The notes beneath the pieces were generated by a model. It worked only from the letters and a program-made list of their open reading frames with translations, was not told the DNA's origin and made no database searches. Below, in pieces: positions 16,438-63,232 of a DNA stretch of 64,000 bases. The position numbers and the translations under genes are program-made. Each line of letters opens with the position of its first letter. Positions within the stretch are counted from its first letter, which is position 1. This stretch comes from Hyphomicrobiales bacterium (GTDB lineage: Bacteria > Pseudomonadota > Alphaproteobacteria > Rhizobiales > Beijerinckiaceae), in assembly GCA_947454055.1 (NCBI GenBank), contig CANGIS010000006.1, forward strand, positions 1 through 64,000. The letters run 5' to 3'.

Positions 16438-16939
16438 AGGCGGCATCGCTGCATTCATCATGTGCATTATATTGCCGACCATCAGCCGGGTTGCTTGCCG
16501 GTCAATCTTTCGTCCAAAACGCATCATTGGCGTAATCACAACGTCATTGCGAGCGACAGCGAAGCAACCCAGCTAGCGGATGTGATTAACGCGCATCGCG
16601 GCTAAGCCCTTTTCGTGATGGGCAGCTTATTGGCGGTCATCAGCTGGGTTGCTTCGCTGTCGCTCGCAATGACGGAGGGATGTTTATTCTTTATTAAATA
16701 TATTTTCGACGAATGAGTTGTATCTCGTAAGCGTATTTAAACAATCATAAGTTGTATAAAAGTTGTATTACAATTTTTATGATGTAAAAATTGTGTCAAA
16801 AAAGCAACATTTCCCATGGGAATCGTCCGTAACATCAAAATCAACAAAACTACCGTTGCGGAATCCAATCCCGTTTTTCATGGTGTGGAGGTTGAAACGG
16901 TCCGGGACGGTCCTGGACACTCAGATGATGGATCACACC
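16438..16939. other. Long intergenic region upstream of the porin
   Basis: This 502-base region has two parts. The ribA-proximal half holds an inverted pair of the REP-like repeat. The porin-proximal half, from about 16680, is strikingly AT-rich and contains three copies of AGTTGTAT (16716, 16750, 16761). No further gene is apparent; the open frame running into the porin from 16763 lacks coding character. Confidence 0.6.
16542..16674. repeat. REP-like inverted repeat pair, locus A
   Basis: The 33 bases at 16542-16574 (starting CGTCATTGCGAGCG, ending CAACCCAGCT) recur as a perfect reverse complement at 16642-16674, with 67 bases between. A partial third copy (CAGCCGGGTTGCTT) lies at about 16483-16496. 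Related copies occur at three other intergenic loci in the window. Confidence 0.9.
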
Positions 16940-38472: not shown

Positions 38473-39768
38473 GTGAACGAGATTGATCGCGCCGAGGCCG
38501 TCCGCGTCACGACCTTGCCGAATGGCTTAAGGGTGGTGAGCGAAGCCATGCCGGGGCTGGCCACCGCCGCCTTGGGTATCTGGAGCGGGGCAGGATCGCG
38601 GCACGAACACGCCGAGGAGCAGGGTCTGGCTCATCTCCTTGAACATATGGCGTTCAAAGGCACCGCCCGTCGCAGCGCCCGACAAATCGCCGAAGAGATC
38701 GAGGCGGTCGGCGGCGAGGTCAATGCCGAGACCAATACCGAATATACCGCCTATTATTCCCGCGTATTGGGACAAGATACCGGCCTTGCGCTCGATATTT
38801 TGGCCGATATCCTGACCGAACCCACCTTCGACGCGACGGAATTGAAGCGCGAGAAGGGTGTTATTCTTCAGGAAATCGGCTCTTATGAGGACACGCCCGA
38901 CGAGGTCGTGTTCGATATGTTCATGGAAACCGCCTATGCGGGCGCTCCCATCGGACGGCGCATTCTGGGTACGCCGAAGACGGTCAAAGCTCAAAACAGC
39001 GCCTCCATGCGGAATTTTATGGATCGCACCTATCGCACCCCTTCGATGGTGGTCTCCGCCGCCGGTGCGGTACATCATGAACAGATCGTCGAGGATGTGA
39101 CACGCCGCTTTGACGGTTTTGGCCGTGAAAGCGCACCCGCGGCCGAGCCCGCAACCTATCGCGGCGGCGATCAGCGCCGGATGCGCAAACTCGAGCAATC
39201 CCATGTCGTGTTCGGCTTCAAGGGACTGTCTTGGCGCGATCCCGACCATTACGCCATGCATGTGTTTTCCAATCTGCTGGGCGGCGGCATGTCCTCGCGG
39301 CTCTTCCAGGAAGTGCGCGAAAAGCGCGGGCTTTGCTACGAGGTCTATTCATTTTTCTCGCCCTTCTCCGATTCGGGCGTGTTTGCGATTTATGGCGGCA
39401 CCGGCGACGCCCAATTGGCGGATTTTACGCCGGTGGCGCTTGATACGCTGGTGGAAGCAGCCGCCTCGCCCAATGAAGGCGAAGTCGCACGGGCCAAGGC
39501 GCAAATGAAAATGTCACTGCTCACCGCGCTTGAATCCCCCGGCCGTCGCGCCGAGCAGATGGCGCGACATATGATGGCCTATGGCCGTGTCATACCGCGG
39601 ATCGAGATTATCCAGGCGATTGATGCCATCACGGTCGACGATGTCCGCCGCGTGGGACAGGGACTGTTGACCGCATCGCCGACCGTTTCGGCCATCGGCC
39701 CGATCAAGAAACTGATGCCGTTTGACGCGATTGCCGCTCGCCTTGGCGCGCCGCAGGCACCGCTTTAA
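38473..39768 (+). CDS. M16 family zinc metallopeptidase (processing-peptidase-like)
   Basis: The 431 residues match the bacterial homologues of the mitochondrial processing peptidase beta subunit. The inverted zinc motif is HLLEH (residues 54-58) in EQGLAHLLEHMAFKGTARRS, with the distal Glu in the following helices and GGGMSSRLFQEVREKRGLCY in the second half. No signal peptide is seen, so it may be cytoplasmic. The start is a GTG immediately after the thrC stop. Substrate unknown. The thrC-M16-GNAT order is conserved in Rhizobiales. Confidence 0.92.
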   Translation: MNEIDRAEAVRVTTLPNGLRVVSEAMPGLATAALGIWSGAGSRHEHAEEQGLAHLLEHMAFKGTARRSARQIAEEIEAVGGEVNAETNTEYTAYYSRVLGQDTGLALDILADILTEPTFDATELKREKGVILQEIGSYEDTPDEVVFDMFMETAYAGAPIGRRILGTPKTVKAQNSASMRNFMDRTYRTPSMVVSAAGAVHHEQIVEDVTRRFDGFGRESAPAAEPATYRGGDQRRMRKLEQSHVVFGFKGLSWRDPDHYAMHVFSNLLGGGMSSRLFQEVREKRGLCYEVYSFFSPFSDSGVFAIYGGTGDAQLADFTPVALDTLVEAAASPNEGEVARAKAQMKMSLLTALESPGRRAEQMARHMMAYGRVIPRIEIIQAIDAITVDDVRRVGQGLLTASPTVSAIGPIKKLMPFDAIAARLGAPQAPL

Positions 39769-39783
39769 TCGGGGAGATTCCCG

Positions 39784-40362
39784 ATGGGATTGTTTGGCCG
39801 TCTGACAAAGCCGCCGGAGCGCTACACCGAACGTGCTGACGGCTTGATGATCCGTCCGCCCACGATGGATGATTTTCCGGCATGGTCGGTGGTTCGGACC
39901 GAAAGCCGCCGCTTTCTTACCCCATGGGAGCCAAGCTGGCCGGCCGATGACCTGACACGCAACGCCTATAGGCGGCGTTATTTTAATGAGGCCGATCCCG
40001 ATTTTCTGCATCCCTATTTTATTTTCAACGACGCCTCGGGCCAGTTGGTCGGTGGTATCACCTTCGGCCATGTCCGGAGGGGCGTCGCGCAAAGCACCAT
40101 GATGGGCTACTGGATGAACCAGAGCTTTGCAGGCCGAGGCATCATGACCCGCGCGGTGCCGTTGGCGCTGCGGCAAGCGTTCGGCCCTTTAGGCTTTCGC
40201 CGGATTGAAGCAGGCTGCTTGCCGCGCAACGTGCCCTCCATCAAGGTGCTGGAACATAACGGCTTCATCCGCGAGGGCTTCGCGCGCCAGTATCTCTGCA
40301 TTGCCGGTGTTTGGGAGGATCATTTCCTCTATGCCCGCCTGAAATCGGACCCGGCACCGTAA
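39784..40362 (+). CDS. GNAT family N-acetyltransferase (RimJ/RimL type)
   Basis: The 192 residues carry the GNAT fold in the RimJ/RimL subgroup, which acetylates N-terminal amines of proteins. Segments seen: WEPSWPADDLTRNAYRRR, GGITFGHVRRGVAQSTMMGYWM, the acetyl-CoA region NQSFAGRGIMTRAVPLAL, and FRRIEAGCLPRNVPSIKVLEHNGF. GGGGAG precedes the start, 15 bases after the peptidase. Substrate unknown; a ribosomal protein is possible by family. Confidence 0.88.
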   Translation: MGLFGRLTKPPERYTERADGLMIRPPTMDDFPAWSVVRTESRRFLTPWEPSWPADDLTRNAYRRRYFNEADPDFLHPYFIFNDASGQLVGGITFGHVRRGVAQSTMMGYWMNQSFAGRGIMTRAVPLALRQAFGPLGFRRIEAGCLPRNVPSIKVLEHNGFIREGFARQYLCIAGVWEDHFLYARLKSDPAP

Positions 40363-40371
40363 ATTTTATGC

Positions 40372-40491
40372 CGTCATTGCGAACGAGAGCGAAGCAACCC
40401 AGATGATGGTTGCCGAACCGGCACAAAGGTAGCCGCTGCACTCCACCCACCAACGCCAGCTGGATGGTTTCGCTCGTGCTTCGCAAGGACG
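40372..40491. repeat. REP-like inverted repeat pair, locus B
   Basis: One arm, 40372-40402, starts CGTCATTGCGAACGAG and ends CAACCCAG. The opposing, more diverged arm, 40458-40491, reads AGCTGGATGGTTTCGCTCG and ends AAGGACG. Same family as loci A, C and D; it sits between the GNAT and GGDEF-EAL genes. Confidence 0.8.
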
Positions 40492-40633: not shown

Positions 40634-43498
40634 TTGAAGTTTCGCCGTCTTGTCTATCTGCTGATACTTCTGGCCGTCGGCGTGTTCTCCGATCACGCGG
40701 CGATGGCGGTCGATGTGGTGCGCGTGCCGCCCGAGGCCGACGCGATCAATCTTTTGCCCTATGTCGATCCGCACCGCTCGGCGGGTGATGAAATTCTGAT
40801 TTCGACCGCGCCGAGTGCCGACGGCATTGTTCGCCGTATCGCGGTCAAGGCCAAGACGGAAGGCAGCCAGCCGGACTGGATCGTCTTCGCCCTTAAAAAC
40901 GAGGGCACCGAGCCTTTAACGCGCTGGGTCGTCGCCCCCCACCAGCATCTTGTCGGTTCGGGCATCATCTGGCCCGATCTGGGTGCCACGCGACTGGCCA
41001 ATGTGACGGCAAGCCAGGGCGGCAATCCGGAGCGTCAGCCCTCCAACGAGGCCGATATTTTCCAGATCACGCTCGATCCGGGTTCGTCGGTCACCTTTGT
41101 CGCCGAGCTTGCCAATGTCGCTTTGCCCCAACTCGTCTTATGGGCCCCCGACGCCTACAAGGACAAAGCCAACGGCCTGACCTTCTATCGCGGCGTGATC
41201 ACCGGCATTATCGGCCTGCTTGCGTTGTTTTTGACCATTTTGTCCCTGATCCGCGGCACGATCATCTTCCCGTCTGCGGCCTTGATGGCCTGGGCGGTTG
41301 TGGCCTATGTCGCGGTCGATTTCGGCTTTCCGGCGGCGGTGTTTTCGACCACCCCAGAGAGCGAGCGGCTCTATCGGGCGATCGCTGAATCGGTCTTGTC
41401 GTCGACCCTGTTTGTGTTCCTGTTCGCCTATCTTGATCTCAAGCGCTGGCGGGTGCGGTATCGTCACATCAGCACGATATGGCTTCTGTTTTTAGGCGGC
41501 CTCGTCGCTATTGCGCTGATTGATCCCGCCGTCGCCTCGGGCGTTGCCCGAATTTCCATGGCGGCGATCACGGTGGCGGGCTTTATGCTGATCGTCTATC
41601 TCGCCACCCATGGCAATGACCGGGCGATTTTGCTGGTGCCGACCTGGCTTGTTCTTCTCGCTTGGGTCACGGCTGCGGGCTTTACCCTGATCGGGCAGGT
41701 TACCAGCGATCTGGCCGCCCAATCCCTGATCGGCGGCTTGGTGCTGATCATCCTTCTGATCGGCTTCACCGTGATGCAGCACGCCTTTACGGGCGGGGGC
41801 ATGGCGGGTGGCGAATTGGCCGATGCCTCGCGTAAAGCACTCGCTTTGACGGGCGCGGGCGACATCATCTTTGACTGGGATATTGCGCGCGATCATGTCC
41901 GGATCGGTGCCGAAGCGGAGGCGATCCTCGGCTATCCGAAGGGGCGGCTTGAAGGTATGCCGTCCGATTTTATCGATCATATCCACCCGTCCGACCGCGA
42001 TCTGTTTGCCGCCGCCGTCGACCGGTTCTGCGCACAACGGCGCGGCCGGCTCTCGCTGGATCTCCGGCTTCGCGCCAATGACGGACATTTCCACTGGTTC
42101 CGGATGCGCGCGCGCCCCATTGTCGGCGAGGATGGCGCGGTACTTCGCCTGATGGGCACCTTGTCCGACATCACCGATTCACGGCTGACCGAAGAGCGTC
42201 TCTTGCAGGACGCGATCCACGACACGCTGACCGGCCTGCCCAATCGCCGCCTGCTGATCGACCGCATCGACCTGATGCTGGCCTTGATGCGCGAGGGCGA
42301 GACGCTTCGGCCGACCGTTGTGGCGATCGATATCGACCGGTTCCGGGAAACCAATGAAGCGCTCGGCTTGAGCAGTGGCGATGCGTTGTTGCTCGCCGTC
42401 ACCCGCCGGCTGTTGCGCCTGATCCGCCCACAAGACGGGCTCGCCCGCATCGGTGGCGACCGTTTCGCCATTCTGCTTTTGTCCGAGCGGGAGCCCGGCC
42501 CGATCACCGCCGTGGTCGATTCCATCCGCAAGAGCCTCGCCGCTCCCATTTCAGTGGGCGAGCGCGAGGCCAATCTGACGGCCTCCATCGGCATCGCGCT
42601 GCCCGACCAACGCAGCGAAACCAATGCTGAGCTTCTGTTGCGCAACGCTGAAATCGCGATGATGCACGCCAAAAAGCTGGGCGGCGACCGCATCGACGTT
42701 TTCCGCCCAGCCATGCGGGCGCAAGGCAGCGAAAGGCTGGCGCTCGAAATGGACCTGCGCGAGGCCGTCAAGCGCAACCAAATCGAGCTGAGCTTCCGCC
42801 CTATCGTTCACCTCAGCAACCGGTCGATTTCCGGTTTCGAGGTAATTCCGGTCTGGAACCATCCCGATCACGGTTCCATCGGCCAGAACGAATTCATGGC
42901 CATTGCCGAGAGCGCCGAGCTGGTCGGCACCATCGGCCTGCATATTCTCAAAGCCGCGGCGCAGGAGCTCGCGGTATGGCAAAAATTGATCGATATCGAC
43001 CCGCCGTTTTTTGCTGCCCTTCCGGTTCCCGCTCCGATGCTCGAACGCGCCGAATTTGTGCGCGACGTGCGGGCCGTGTTGAGCAATGCGCCGATCGTCA
43101 AATCATCGCTCCGGATCGAAGTATCCGAGCGCTACCTGATGGATCACCCCGAACACGCCATCCACACGCTCAACGGCTTGAATGATATCGGGGCCGGTCT
43201 CGCGGTCGAGGATTTTGGTCAGGGTTATTCCTCGCTTGGCTATCTCGAGCGCTTCCCGTTCAGCTCCATCCGCCTGTCGCGGATGATTACGCGGCCCGAT
43301 CCCTCCGGCATTCGTCCGGCCATTTTGCGCTCGATTGTCTCGCTCGCCCACGAACTCGATATCGAGCTTGTGGCGGACGGGCTCGAGACCGAATCCGATA
43401 TTGTCCAATTCTCGCAATTGGGCCTGAGCCTAGGGCAAGGTTCGGTGTTTGGTCCGACGCTAACGGCAACAGCGACCCGCAAGCTGATCAAGGGCTAG
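40634..43498 (+). CDS. Membrane PAS-GGDEF-EAL protein with degenerate catalytic motifs
   Basis: A 954-residue signalling protein: signal peptide (to about 26), periplasmic beta-rich domain (30-180), a cluster of about seven membrane helices (185-390), PAS (about 400-520), GGDEF (about 525-690) and EAL (about 700-954). The GGDEF site reads IGGDRFAIL (about residue 605), so the catalytic Glu is lost. The EAL domain reads GFEVIPVW, lacks the usual Asn motif, has EDFGQGYSS for DDFG, RLSR for the KID motif, and VADGLE for VAEGVE. It is probably a non-catalytic c-di-GMP receptor or scaffold. The start is TTG. Confidence 0.9.
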   Translation: MKFRRLVYLLILLAVGVFSDHAAMAVDVVRVPPEADAINLLPYVDPHRSAGDEILISTAPSADGIVRRIAVKAKTEGSQPDWIVFALKNEGTEPLTRWVVAPHQHLVGSGIIWPDLGATRLANVTASQGGNPERQPSNEADIFQITLDPGSSVTFVAELANVALPQLVLWAPDAYKDKANGLTFYRGVITGIIGLLALFLTILSLIRGTIIFPSAALMAWAVVAYVAVDFGFPAAVFSTTPESERLYRAIAESVLSSTLFVFLFAYLDLKRWRVRYRHISTIWLLFLGGLVAIALIDPAVASGVARISMAAITVAGFMLIVYLATHGNDRAILLVPTWLVLLAWVTAAGFTLIGQVTSDLAAQSLIGGLVLIILLIGFTVMQHAFTGGGMAGGELADASRKALALTGAGDIIFDWDIARDHVRIGAEAEAILGYPKGRLEGMPSDFIDHIHPSDRDLFAAAVDRFCAQRRGRLSLDLRLRANDGHFHWFRMRARPIVGEDGAVLRLMGTLSDITDSRLTEERLLQDAIHDTLTGLPNRRLLIDRIDLMLALMREGETLRPTVVAIDIDRFRETNEALGLSSGDALLLAVTRRLLRLIRPQDGLARIGGDRFAILLLSEREPGPITAVVDSIRKSLAAPISVGEREANLTASIGIALPDQRSETNAELLLRNAEIAMMHAKKLGGDRIDVFRPAMRAQGSERLALEMDLREAVKRNQIELSFRPIVHLSNRSISGFEVIPVWNHPDHGSIGQNEFMAIAESAELVGTIGLHILKAAAQELAVWQKLIDIDPPFFAALPVPAPMLERAEFVRDVRAVLSNAPIVKSSLRIEVSERYLMDHPEHAIHTLNGLNDIGAGLAVEDFGQGYSSLGYLERFPFSSIRLSRMITRPDPSGIRPAILRSIVSLAHELDIELVADGLETESDIVQFSQLGLSLGQGSVFGPTLTATATRKLIKG

Positions 43499-43531: not shown

Positions 43532-44143
43532 TCAGGCATGCCCTGCATCGGGCGACAACATCGCAAGATCGACGCCGATGGAGGCAAGCGCCCGCTCGTA
43601 TTTTGTCTCGAAATATTCGTCGAACAAAATATCGCGCGTCGGCGGACACAGGAGCCATCCATTGTTCTGGATTTCAGCCTCGAGTTGCCCCGCGCCCCAC
43701 CCCGCATAGCCCAGCGCGAACGCCACACGATCAGGACCATCACCCCGCGCAATGGCGTGCAGAATATCAATATTGGCCGATAGCTGCACCTCGCCATCCA
43801 CTTTCACGGAGCCGAATTCCTTATCGGCATCGACCGAGTGCAGTACAAAGCCGCGGCTGGTTTCGACCGGACCACCACGGATGACATGCACCTCGCGCGC
43901 CTTTTCGGGGAAATAGGCCGGTCGCCCTTCCGGAATAATTTTGAGCTGCTGCAACAAATCAATAAATGCGATCTCGTCGGCGGGCCGGTTGATGATCAGC
44001 CCCATCGCCCCTTCCTCGGAGTGGGAGCAGACATAGATCACCGTCCGCTCGAATCGCGGATCACCAATGCCGGGCATTGCCACCAGCATTTGCCCGTGCA
44101 GCGCCGATTGGGAGGCTGTGTCAAGATTCGTGCGTGTCGTCAT
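43532..44143 (-). CDS. YqgE/AlgH family protein (DUF179)
   Basis: The 203 residues have the DUF179 pattern: LHGQMLVAMPGIGDPRFERT, VIYVCSHSEEGAMGLIINRP, VIRGGPVETSRGFVLHS and FALGYAGWGAGQLEAEI. Members are cytoplasmic and conserved in Proteobacteria; function is unsettled (AlgH was linked to alginate control in Pseudomonas). It is convergent with the GGDEF-EAL gene and divergent from the DsbD-N-like gene. Confidence 0.9.
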   Translation of the reverse strand: MTTRTNLDTASQSALHGQMLVAMPGIGDPRFERTVIYVCSHSEEGAMGLIINRPADEIAFIDLLQQLKIIPEGRPAYFPEKAREVHVIRGGPVETSRGFVLHSVDADKEFGSVKVDGEVQLSANIDILHAIARGDGPDRVAFALGYAGWGAGQLEAEIQNNGWLLCPPTRDILFDEYFETKYERALASIGVDLAMLSPDAGHA

Positions 44144-62311: not shown

Positions 62312-62474
62312 CGTCATTGCGAGGTCAGGACGAGTTCGAGAGGTAAAATCTCACCGTCATTGCGAGCATTAGCGAAGCAAGCCAGTTAATGGCCGTTATT
62401 TAAAAACGGCAGTAAGGTTGCGTTCTCATTCGCTACGATCAGCTGGGTTGCTTCGCTCATCGCTCGCAATGACG
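62312..62474. repeat. REP-like repeat cluster, locus C
   Basis: Copies at 62312 (CGTCATTGCGAGG, partial), 62355-62387 (CGTCATTGCGAGCATTAGCG, ends GCCAGTT) and inverted 62440-62474 (CAGCTGGGTTGCTTCGCTC, ends AATGACG) fill the gap between rnhA and the small membrane protein gene. Confidence 0.88.
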
Positions 62475-62865: not shown

Positions 62866-63232
62866 TGCTTGCGCTCCAAACCCTTAAGGCCATTGACCGA
62901 CGCCCAAATCCGACAGGACTGTGCCGTAGCTTTCTAAAAAGTAAAACCTTTTTCGTCATTGCGAACAGTGAGGAGTGTTTTGCAAAGCAAACAAAAAGGT
63001 CCGGTGGACCTTTTTGAACGACGAACGAAGCAACCCAGCTGGTGATGAACGATAGGGCGCCGTGGCGCCATCGCGCCCTCTAAGCGTTCCTCTAGCTGGT
63101 TTGCTCCGCTCCCGCTCGCAATGACGGCGGGAAACACCATCGCTTCACCCAACCTCACCAAAATGTCACCAAACGGCCATGGTCTGACGCGACACTCGTG
63201 CTTATATGAGGGGCACAAGGGAGACCCACGCC
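62866..63232. other. Intergenic region with repeat cluster D
   Basis: This 367-base gap between divergent genes holds repeat locus D, a strong hairpin at 62993-63015 and, in its last 100 bases, the probable promoter and leader of the DUF2076 gene. No coding frame with family resemblance was seen. Confidence 0.6.
62954..63126. repeat. REP-like repeat cluster, locus D
   Basis: A plus-oriented start CGTCATTGCGAACAGTGAGG (62954) is interrupted by a perfect 10-bp hairpin (AAAAAGGTCC/GGACCTTTTT, 62993-63015), then resumes as ACGAAGCAACCCAGCTGG (about 63024). The inverted arm is 63094-63126 (AGCTGGTTTGCTCCGCTC, ends AATGACG). Confidence 0.8.

Follow-up and report, generated by a model that had tools for sequence, protein, structure and literature searches.

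RgsP is reported to be an essential protein of S. meliloti, located at the pole and the septum, and to have RgsM as its partner in zonal peptidoglycan synthesis (PMC6107284). In that paper, variants lacking the 7TMR-DISMED2, 7TM or PAS part did not complement, and their protein levels were also lower; variants in which the EAL motif was changed to AAL, or the EAL domain deleted, did complement, and removal of the GGDEF domain partly impaired function. The same results with these variants are described for S. meliloti devoid of c-di-GMP, and the growth function is presented as needing neither the EAL site nor c-di-GMP. The EAL domain itself is described as active, and a PAS-GGDEF fragment is described as not binding c-di-GMP. 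In Brucella, deletion of PdeA/BpdA results in rounded cells, and an E742A mutant has the shape of the wild type (PMC10787603).

The gene studied here lies in a window of 64,000 nucleotides, the whole stretch of DNA that was analysed, and by sequence comparison its product is an orthologue of S. meliloti RgsP (BpdA/PdeA in Brucella). It shares 46% identity over 945 residues with a 970-residue S. meliloti protein (CP090106.1, LZK74_20800; annotated as a sensor domain-containing phosphodiesterase), which has the same Pfam domains, a GGDQF motif and an intact EAL site. The genes around the S. meliloti copy are thrC, insulinase family, GNAT, rgsP, YqgE/AlgH, hypothetical and peroxiredoxin, and this order is shared with the window. 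The published RgsP is SMc00074, whose GGDQF motif and domain order agree with those of the CP090106.1 copy (PMC6107284); since the tag SMc00074 is absent from CP090106.1, the name RgsP rests on the GGDQF motif, the domains and the gene order. CP090106.1 is a 3.72-Mb S. meliloti record that is labelled pSymB yet has thrC, rgsP and clpB, and the label looks wrong.

At 100 related rgsP loci, some of which end early at contig ends, neighbor matches were found for thrC at 87, for the M16 peptidase at 81, for GNAT at 62 and for algH at 81. At 68 of these loci thrC, M16 and algH are all present, and at 6 none of the neighbors is. The first-pass annotation had called the M16/GNAT neighborhood conserved, which is correct, but had overlooked that this neighborhood belongs to the rgsP locus, which is widely conserved. 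As to a signalling link for the M16 and GNAT neighbors, nothing beyond the conserved gene order was found. A REP-like repeat (GTCATTGCGA...GCGAAGCAA) occurs in the window at 40373–40397, 16543–16673, 62356–62448 and 63101–63125, with some copies forming facing pairs. One copy sits in the gap upstream of rgsP, and a search of this gap for inverted repeats of at least 12 nucleotides gave none.

Matches to the window protein were found in all 199 sampled genomes of the family (E ≤ 1e-20; apart from G102 and G136, all of them reach 2e-145 or better) and in 234 of 249 genomes of the order at E ≤ 1e-100. None of the nine sampled genomes of family f4 (0.9–1.5 Mb) has a match at E 1e-100. The nearest named relatives, at 84–88% identity, belong to metagenome-assembled Beijerinckiaceae/Rhizobiales genomes, and their sample names suggest lakes as the habitat.

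Table 1. Features of the rgsP locus in the window, with the evidence for each.
Feature	Position	Strand	Evidence and remarks
M16 peptidase, conserved neighbor	38473..39768	+	Pfam, gene-order comparison
GNAT acetyltransferase, neighbor in many relatives	39784..40362	+	Pfam, gene-order comparison
RgsP orthologue, 7TMR-DISM / PAS / GGDRF / degenerate EAL	40634..43498	+	954 aa, TTG start
N-terminal hydrophobic signal segment, residues 1–26	40634..40711	+	hydropathy; model helix 2–18
Periplasmic β domain, residues 27–171, at 7TMR-DISMED2 position	40712..41146	+	AlphaFold2 model, Pfam
Seven transmembrane helices, residues 172–386	41147..41791	+	Pfam, AlphaFold2 model, hydropathy
PAS domain region, residues 395–520	41816..42193	+	Pfam
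GGDEF domain, residues 527–685; GGDRF; D566, N574, D583 kept	42212..42688	+	Pfam, alignment
GGDRF motif, residues 607–611 (R610)	42452..42466	+	sequence
EAL domain, residues 707–941, degenerate: N797P, D859E, K880R, E915D	42752..43456	+	Pfam, alignment
YqgE/AlgH family gene, conserved neighbor	43532..44143	-	Pfam, gene-order comparison

The domain order of the window protein, with a periplasmic domain followed by 7TM, PAS, GGDEF and EAL, is that expected for RgsP. The Pfam scores are 170.6 bits for EAL (residues 707–941), 115.1 bits for GGDEF (residues 527–685) and 53.1 bits for PAS_3 (residues 426–509). The 7TMR-DISM_7TM family matches residues 184–378 with 27.9 bits, slightly below the Pfam cut-off of 29, and 7TMR-DISMED2 (PF07696) gives no Pfam match in the window protein and one below the cut-off in S. 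meliloti RgsP. An AlphaFold2 model calculated from a 54-row alignment (mean pLDDT 82.8) contains a periplasmic β domain and seven long helices between residues 172 and 386, and its low pTM of 0.41 makes the mutual placement of the domains unreliable. The membrane architecture with a periplasmic sensor and about seven helices, proposed in the first-pass annotation, is borne out by Pfam and by this model. The modelled EAL domain overlays Caulobacter PdeA (3u2e) with a TMt of 0.90 at 1.9 Å, so that the EAL fold is preserved.

The GGDEF domain of the window protein reads GGDRF and gives no match to the GG(D/E)EF cyclase signature; Asp-566, Asn-574 and Asp-583, which we take to be GTP contacts, are retained. 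The EAL site was scored at eight positions, E N E D D K E Q, the roles of which are established for EAL domains. The corresponding residues are E736, P797 (N), E829, E859 (D), D860, R880 (K), D915 (E) and Q935, so that EPEEDRDQ stands against ENEDDKEQ of the active EAL set and four of the eight residues are replaced. The EGVE residue of EAL domains is described as the catalytic base (PMC12900916). That both catalytic domains look dead, as had been noted before, agrees with the presence of two degenerate domains, but the GGDEF motif deviates in many relatives too (SGDQF, GGDQF and others), and hence only part of the apparent death is new to the window genus. The earlier list of EAL departures was right overall, except that "EVI" keeps the Glu and is therefore not itself a loss, and that N797P had been missed.

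The EAL site is altered in all 11 copies of the window genus in the set, that of the window included, which rules out a sequencing error or a lone oddity. Intact motifs in close relatives had been named as evidence against the loss of catalysis. None of the 11 genus copies is intact; intact sites occur in other genera of the family (for example, 3 of 3 copies in the nearby genus g5) and in S. meliloti, a member of another family. These intact sites show that the loss is derived, the starting point presumably having been an active phosphodiesterase, and leave the deadness of the window protein unrefuted.

The genome that carries the window is 2.67 Mb in size and 100% complete by an estimate for assembled genomes. 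A profile search of this genome gives a single GGDEF match and a single full EAL match, both of them in the RgsP orthologue. It is the sole GGDEF match in 8 of 12 genomes of the genus, this one included. One further GGDEF match is present in each of G169 and G120, and G182 has two further proteins, one of them GGDEF-EAL; the profile search of G199 (83% complete) gave no GGDEF match. A PilZ match occurs in one of the 12 genomes (G182) and not in that of the window.

The extra GGDEF proteins examined from G120, G169 and G182 (L035, L036 and L037) have an intact RRGGDEF motif, and the EAL site of RgsP is altered in these three of 12 genomes too. Contig C19 of the window's own genome encodes a 452-residue protein (L005, 1096–2454, minus strand) with a partial EAL match of 26.4 bits, below the Pfam cut-off; we take its size and layout to resemble those of Caulobacter TipF. 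The remaining 11 genus genomes all have a weak EAL match of this kind, and in G199 it is the only EAL match. A further, separate case is found in G360, a reduced genome from another family (1.5 Mb, family f24; L225/L240), where RgsP is the only GGDEF match and carries D860N and SADRF.

An RgsM-like protein (L167) is also encoded in the window's own genome. It has 639 residues, with a hydrophobic segment at the N terminus and an M23 domain at the C terminus, and shares 32.3% identity over 96% with a 646-residue S. meliloti M23 protein, 646 residues being the length published for RgsM. No MreB was found in this genome: the two partial matches to the MreB model above the cut-off (61.3 and 57.9 bits) are DnaK, which scores 933.5 bits as HSP70, and FtsA. 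Across the 28 genomes that were screened with this model, a match as strong as expected of MreB (425.9 bits) turned up in G201 alone. The result for the window's own genome is consistent with growth at the pole.

The explanation that we consider probable is that the window protein is an RgsP turned pseudoenzyme and that, once c-di-GMP signalling had been lost, it was retained for cell-wall growth at the pole. The growth role would reside in the periplasmic-7TM-PAS part, positioned at the growing pole and the septum as in S. meliloti, and the protein would take part in zonal peptidoglycan synthesis together with a periplasmic metallopeptidase of the RgsM type. Both the GGDEF and the EAL domain would persist as folded modules that serve structure or interaction, GGDEF in a supporting capacity, and EAL chemistry would be a side duty that could be dropped once c-di-GMP was no longer used. 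The phosphodiesterase site, which is intact in most sampled relatives, would have been lost in the window genus once degradation of c-di-GMP was unneeded, as the lack of another GGDEF match and of a PilZ match in the window's own genome suggests. The three of 12 genus genomes with a further intact-motif GGDEF protein count against this account of c-di-GMP loss. The first-pass annotation had read the protein as a non-catalytic receptor or scaffold. A non-catalytic role is supported as probable, as are the degeneracy of both domains and the retention of the protein under selection, but membership of the characterized RgsP/BpdA/PdeA family, which follows from orthology rather than activity, had gone unrecognized.

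An alignment with Rhizobiales orthologues, which had been proposed as a check, shows the alteration throughout the genus (11/11) but all eight EAL residues intact in 153 of 216 Hyphomicrobiales orthologues, with 63 altered. This set is non-random, in that genomes with few GGDEF candidates were picked deliberately and the family genomes came mostly from among the matches listed. Among 45 rows with a known GGDEF count, the site is intact in 0 of 18 single-GGDEF genomes versus 17 of 27 with two or more; by a cruder first-look count of GGDEF candidates, it is intact in 3 of 19 (up to 5 candidates), 12 of 26 (6–8) and 138 of 171 (9 or more), counts that are not independent because the rows are relatives. 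The GGDEF count of G182 was entered as 3, since its four matches include two fragments of a single, split RgsP. GGDEF proteins were also counted in G003, G222 and G359, which lie outside the 216-row set, and G199, with no GGDEF match, was left out of the protein search.

Kinship was taken into account on a FastTree tree of 213 rows built without the EAL columns (G182, G287 and G067 were left out). The site-loss label switches state 25 times along this tree; the single-GGDEF label, known for 42 rows, does so 8 times. Seven independent pairs were obtained for single GGDEF against site loss, with a mean of 3.7 agreeing and 0 disagreeing (median p 0.125), and eight pairs for low candidate count against site loss, with means of 4.7 and 1.0 (median p 0.219). 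The direction fits an association of site loss with a single GGDEF protein, which we regard as weak; the kinship-corrected pair tests have little power, and none reached 0.05 at the median. Loss of the EAL site is also seen in genera rich in GGDEF candidates (g34 and g42), so that loss of c-di-GMP is not required for it.

RgsP is usually the only GGDEF match in the window genus, referred to as g1 (8/12 genomes tested), and in a second genus, g30 (5/5). Genus g30 does not group with g1 but, at full support, with g5, in which the EAL site is intact; the site was therefore lost twice if it was never regained, and the losses in g1 and g30 seem to be separate. Q610R in the GGDEF domain and E837D, D882S and E915D in the EAL domain are the only parallel changes in g1 and g30 that passed the filter applied; the periplasmic, TM and PAS parts have none. 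Arg-610 is present in 29 of the 63 site-altered versus 3 of the 153 intact orthologues (kinship-corrected median p 0.0625).

Domain rates were determined on 75 rows (10 from g1, 5 from g30 and 60 EAL-intact) with 12 column bootstraps each. Relative to the 60 EAL-intact rows, the tree lengths of the periplasmic, TM, PAS, GGDEF and EAL parts are 0.203, 0.200, 0.196, 0.091 and 0.388 for g1 and 0.063, 0.083, 0.039, 0.019 and 0.095 for g30. The ratio of the GGDEF to the N-terminal rate, 0.52 in g1 and 0.35 in g30, is the lowest among 15 genus clades, the others ranging from 0.83 to 1.92; g16 and g19 are not clades and were dropped from this comparison. The EAL/N-terminal ratio is 1.65 in g1 and higher in g5 (1.89) and g18 (1.85). 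As these two EAL-intact genera are as fast or faster, EAL acceleration was abandoned as a signature peculiar to lineages that lack further GGDEF proteins.

The rates of the GGDEF domain allow a further reading, which we consider rather unlikely, in which RgsP was rewired after the loss of c-di-GMP and the GGDEF domain gained a conserved nucleotide-binding (perhaps GTP-sensing) or docking task for polar growth. The marks of such rewiring would be the parallel Q610R, E915D, D882S and E837D together with the two lowest GGDEF rate ratios. The slow GGDEF domain with its parallel Arg is the part that could be new, and the domain may have a GTP-binding or docking role. Alternatively, it may have slowed because interference with other GGDEF paralogues ceased.

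We consider it unlikely that the protein is a dual-dead receptor for c-di-GMP or another nucleotide in the manner of LapD or FimX, with the EAL or GGDEF domain binding the nucleotide and signalling through the membrane. Such a receptor would suit the kept EAL fold, the retained putative GTP contacts and the fact that, in the two clades where other GGDEF proteins are few or lacking, the GGDEF domain evolves more slowly than any other part. However, the window's own genome contains no other GGDEF match to make c-di-GMP, and the PAS-GGDEF fragment that is reported not to bind c-di-GMP comes from S. meliloti RgsP itself (PMC6107284). With the LapD model the protein reaches 87.6 bits, where the cut-off is 1020; on this score and the full-length relationship to RgsP, membership of the LapD/FimX group was rejected as unlikely.

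That the protein is still an enzyme appears improbable. The changes would have left a weak or other-substrate phosphodiesterase, or GGDRF would make c-di-GMP. Three of the four EAL replacements are chemically conservative (E to D, K to R, D to E), and a degenerate motif can stay active, as is described for ZMO1055, which has GGDQF and cyclase activity (PMC12900916). The parallel E915D and Q610R could likewise mean tuning instead of decay, but four of the eight site residues have changed together, and within the genus the site positions also carry G, R, A or T, unlike a tuned site.

Selection was assessed in pairs of congeners, where dS exceeds 1 in most genus pairs and the dN/dS values are therefore rough: dN/dS is at most 0.088 in all domains where it was computable in six genus pairs, and for the EAL domain it is 0.019–0.053 in five g1 pairs and 0.023 and 0.106 in two g30 pairs. 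In the sixth g1 pair, the window's own (G000–G156), the EAL dS is saturated and the EAL dN/dS was not computable; the EAL dN of 0.109 is the highest of its domains. The dN/dS values indicate that the EAL domain stayed under purifying selection in g1 and g30, and the EAL fold hence probably matters. The low dN/dS among congeners also upholds the earlier claim that selection maintains the protein. A drifting relic on its way to becoming a pseudogene, which the faster evolution of the EAL domain than of the remainder of the protein in g1 might suggest, is highly improbable and was rejected on the absence of internal stops among the 10 full-length genus copies listed and on the low dN/dS; the other domains are conserved, and no frameshifted congener copies were seen.

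Among the literature search results listed, there was no report of a degenerate RgsP; the supplement of PMC6107284 tabulates motif variants, so its authors may know of some variation. A comparative c-di-GMP paper makes no mention of RgsP or 7TMR. New here are the occurrence of RgsP as the sole GGDEF match with an altered EAL site, the alteration in 63 of 216 orthologues and the apparently separate loss in two clades. That the phosphodiesterase site was lost repeatedly while the remainder of RgsP stayed conserved amounts to a natural experiment on a protein essential to S. meliloti. The outcome is in line with the laboratory finding that c-di-GMP hydrolysis is dispensable for polar growth, and suggests that the main job of RgsP never needed the chemistry. 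There are uncultured lineages whose last GGDEF-EAL protein looks like a pseudoenzyme, so that domain-search counts would credit them with a c-di-GMP pathway that is possibly absent.

The LapD and FimX receptors resemble the window protein in their GGDEF-EAL pair and its matching folds. Their sites are likewise degenerate; their sensor and membrane parts are unlike those of the window protein, which also falls far short of the cut-off of the LapD model. Brucella BpdA/PdeA, compared here by description, is called a homologue of RgsP in a review, and cell shape is independent of its phosphodiesterase site; it differs in that, according to the review, its phosphodiesterase is active in a heterologous Vibrio test (PMC10787603). 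S. meliloti RgsP has the same architecture and gene order as the window protein, and its GGDEF motif is already degenerate (GGDQF). The difference lies in its intact EAL site, whereas the window protein combines N797P, D859E, K880R and E915D with GGDRF.
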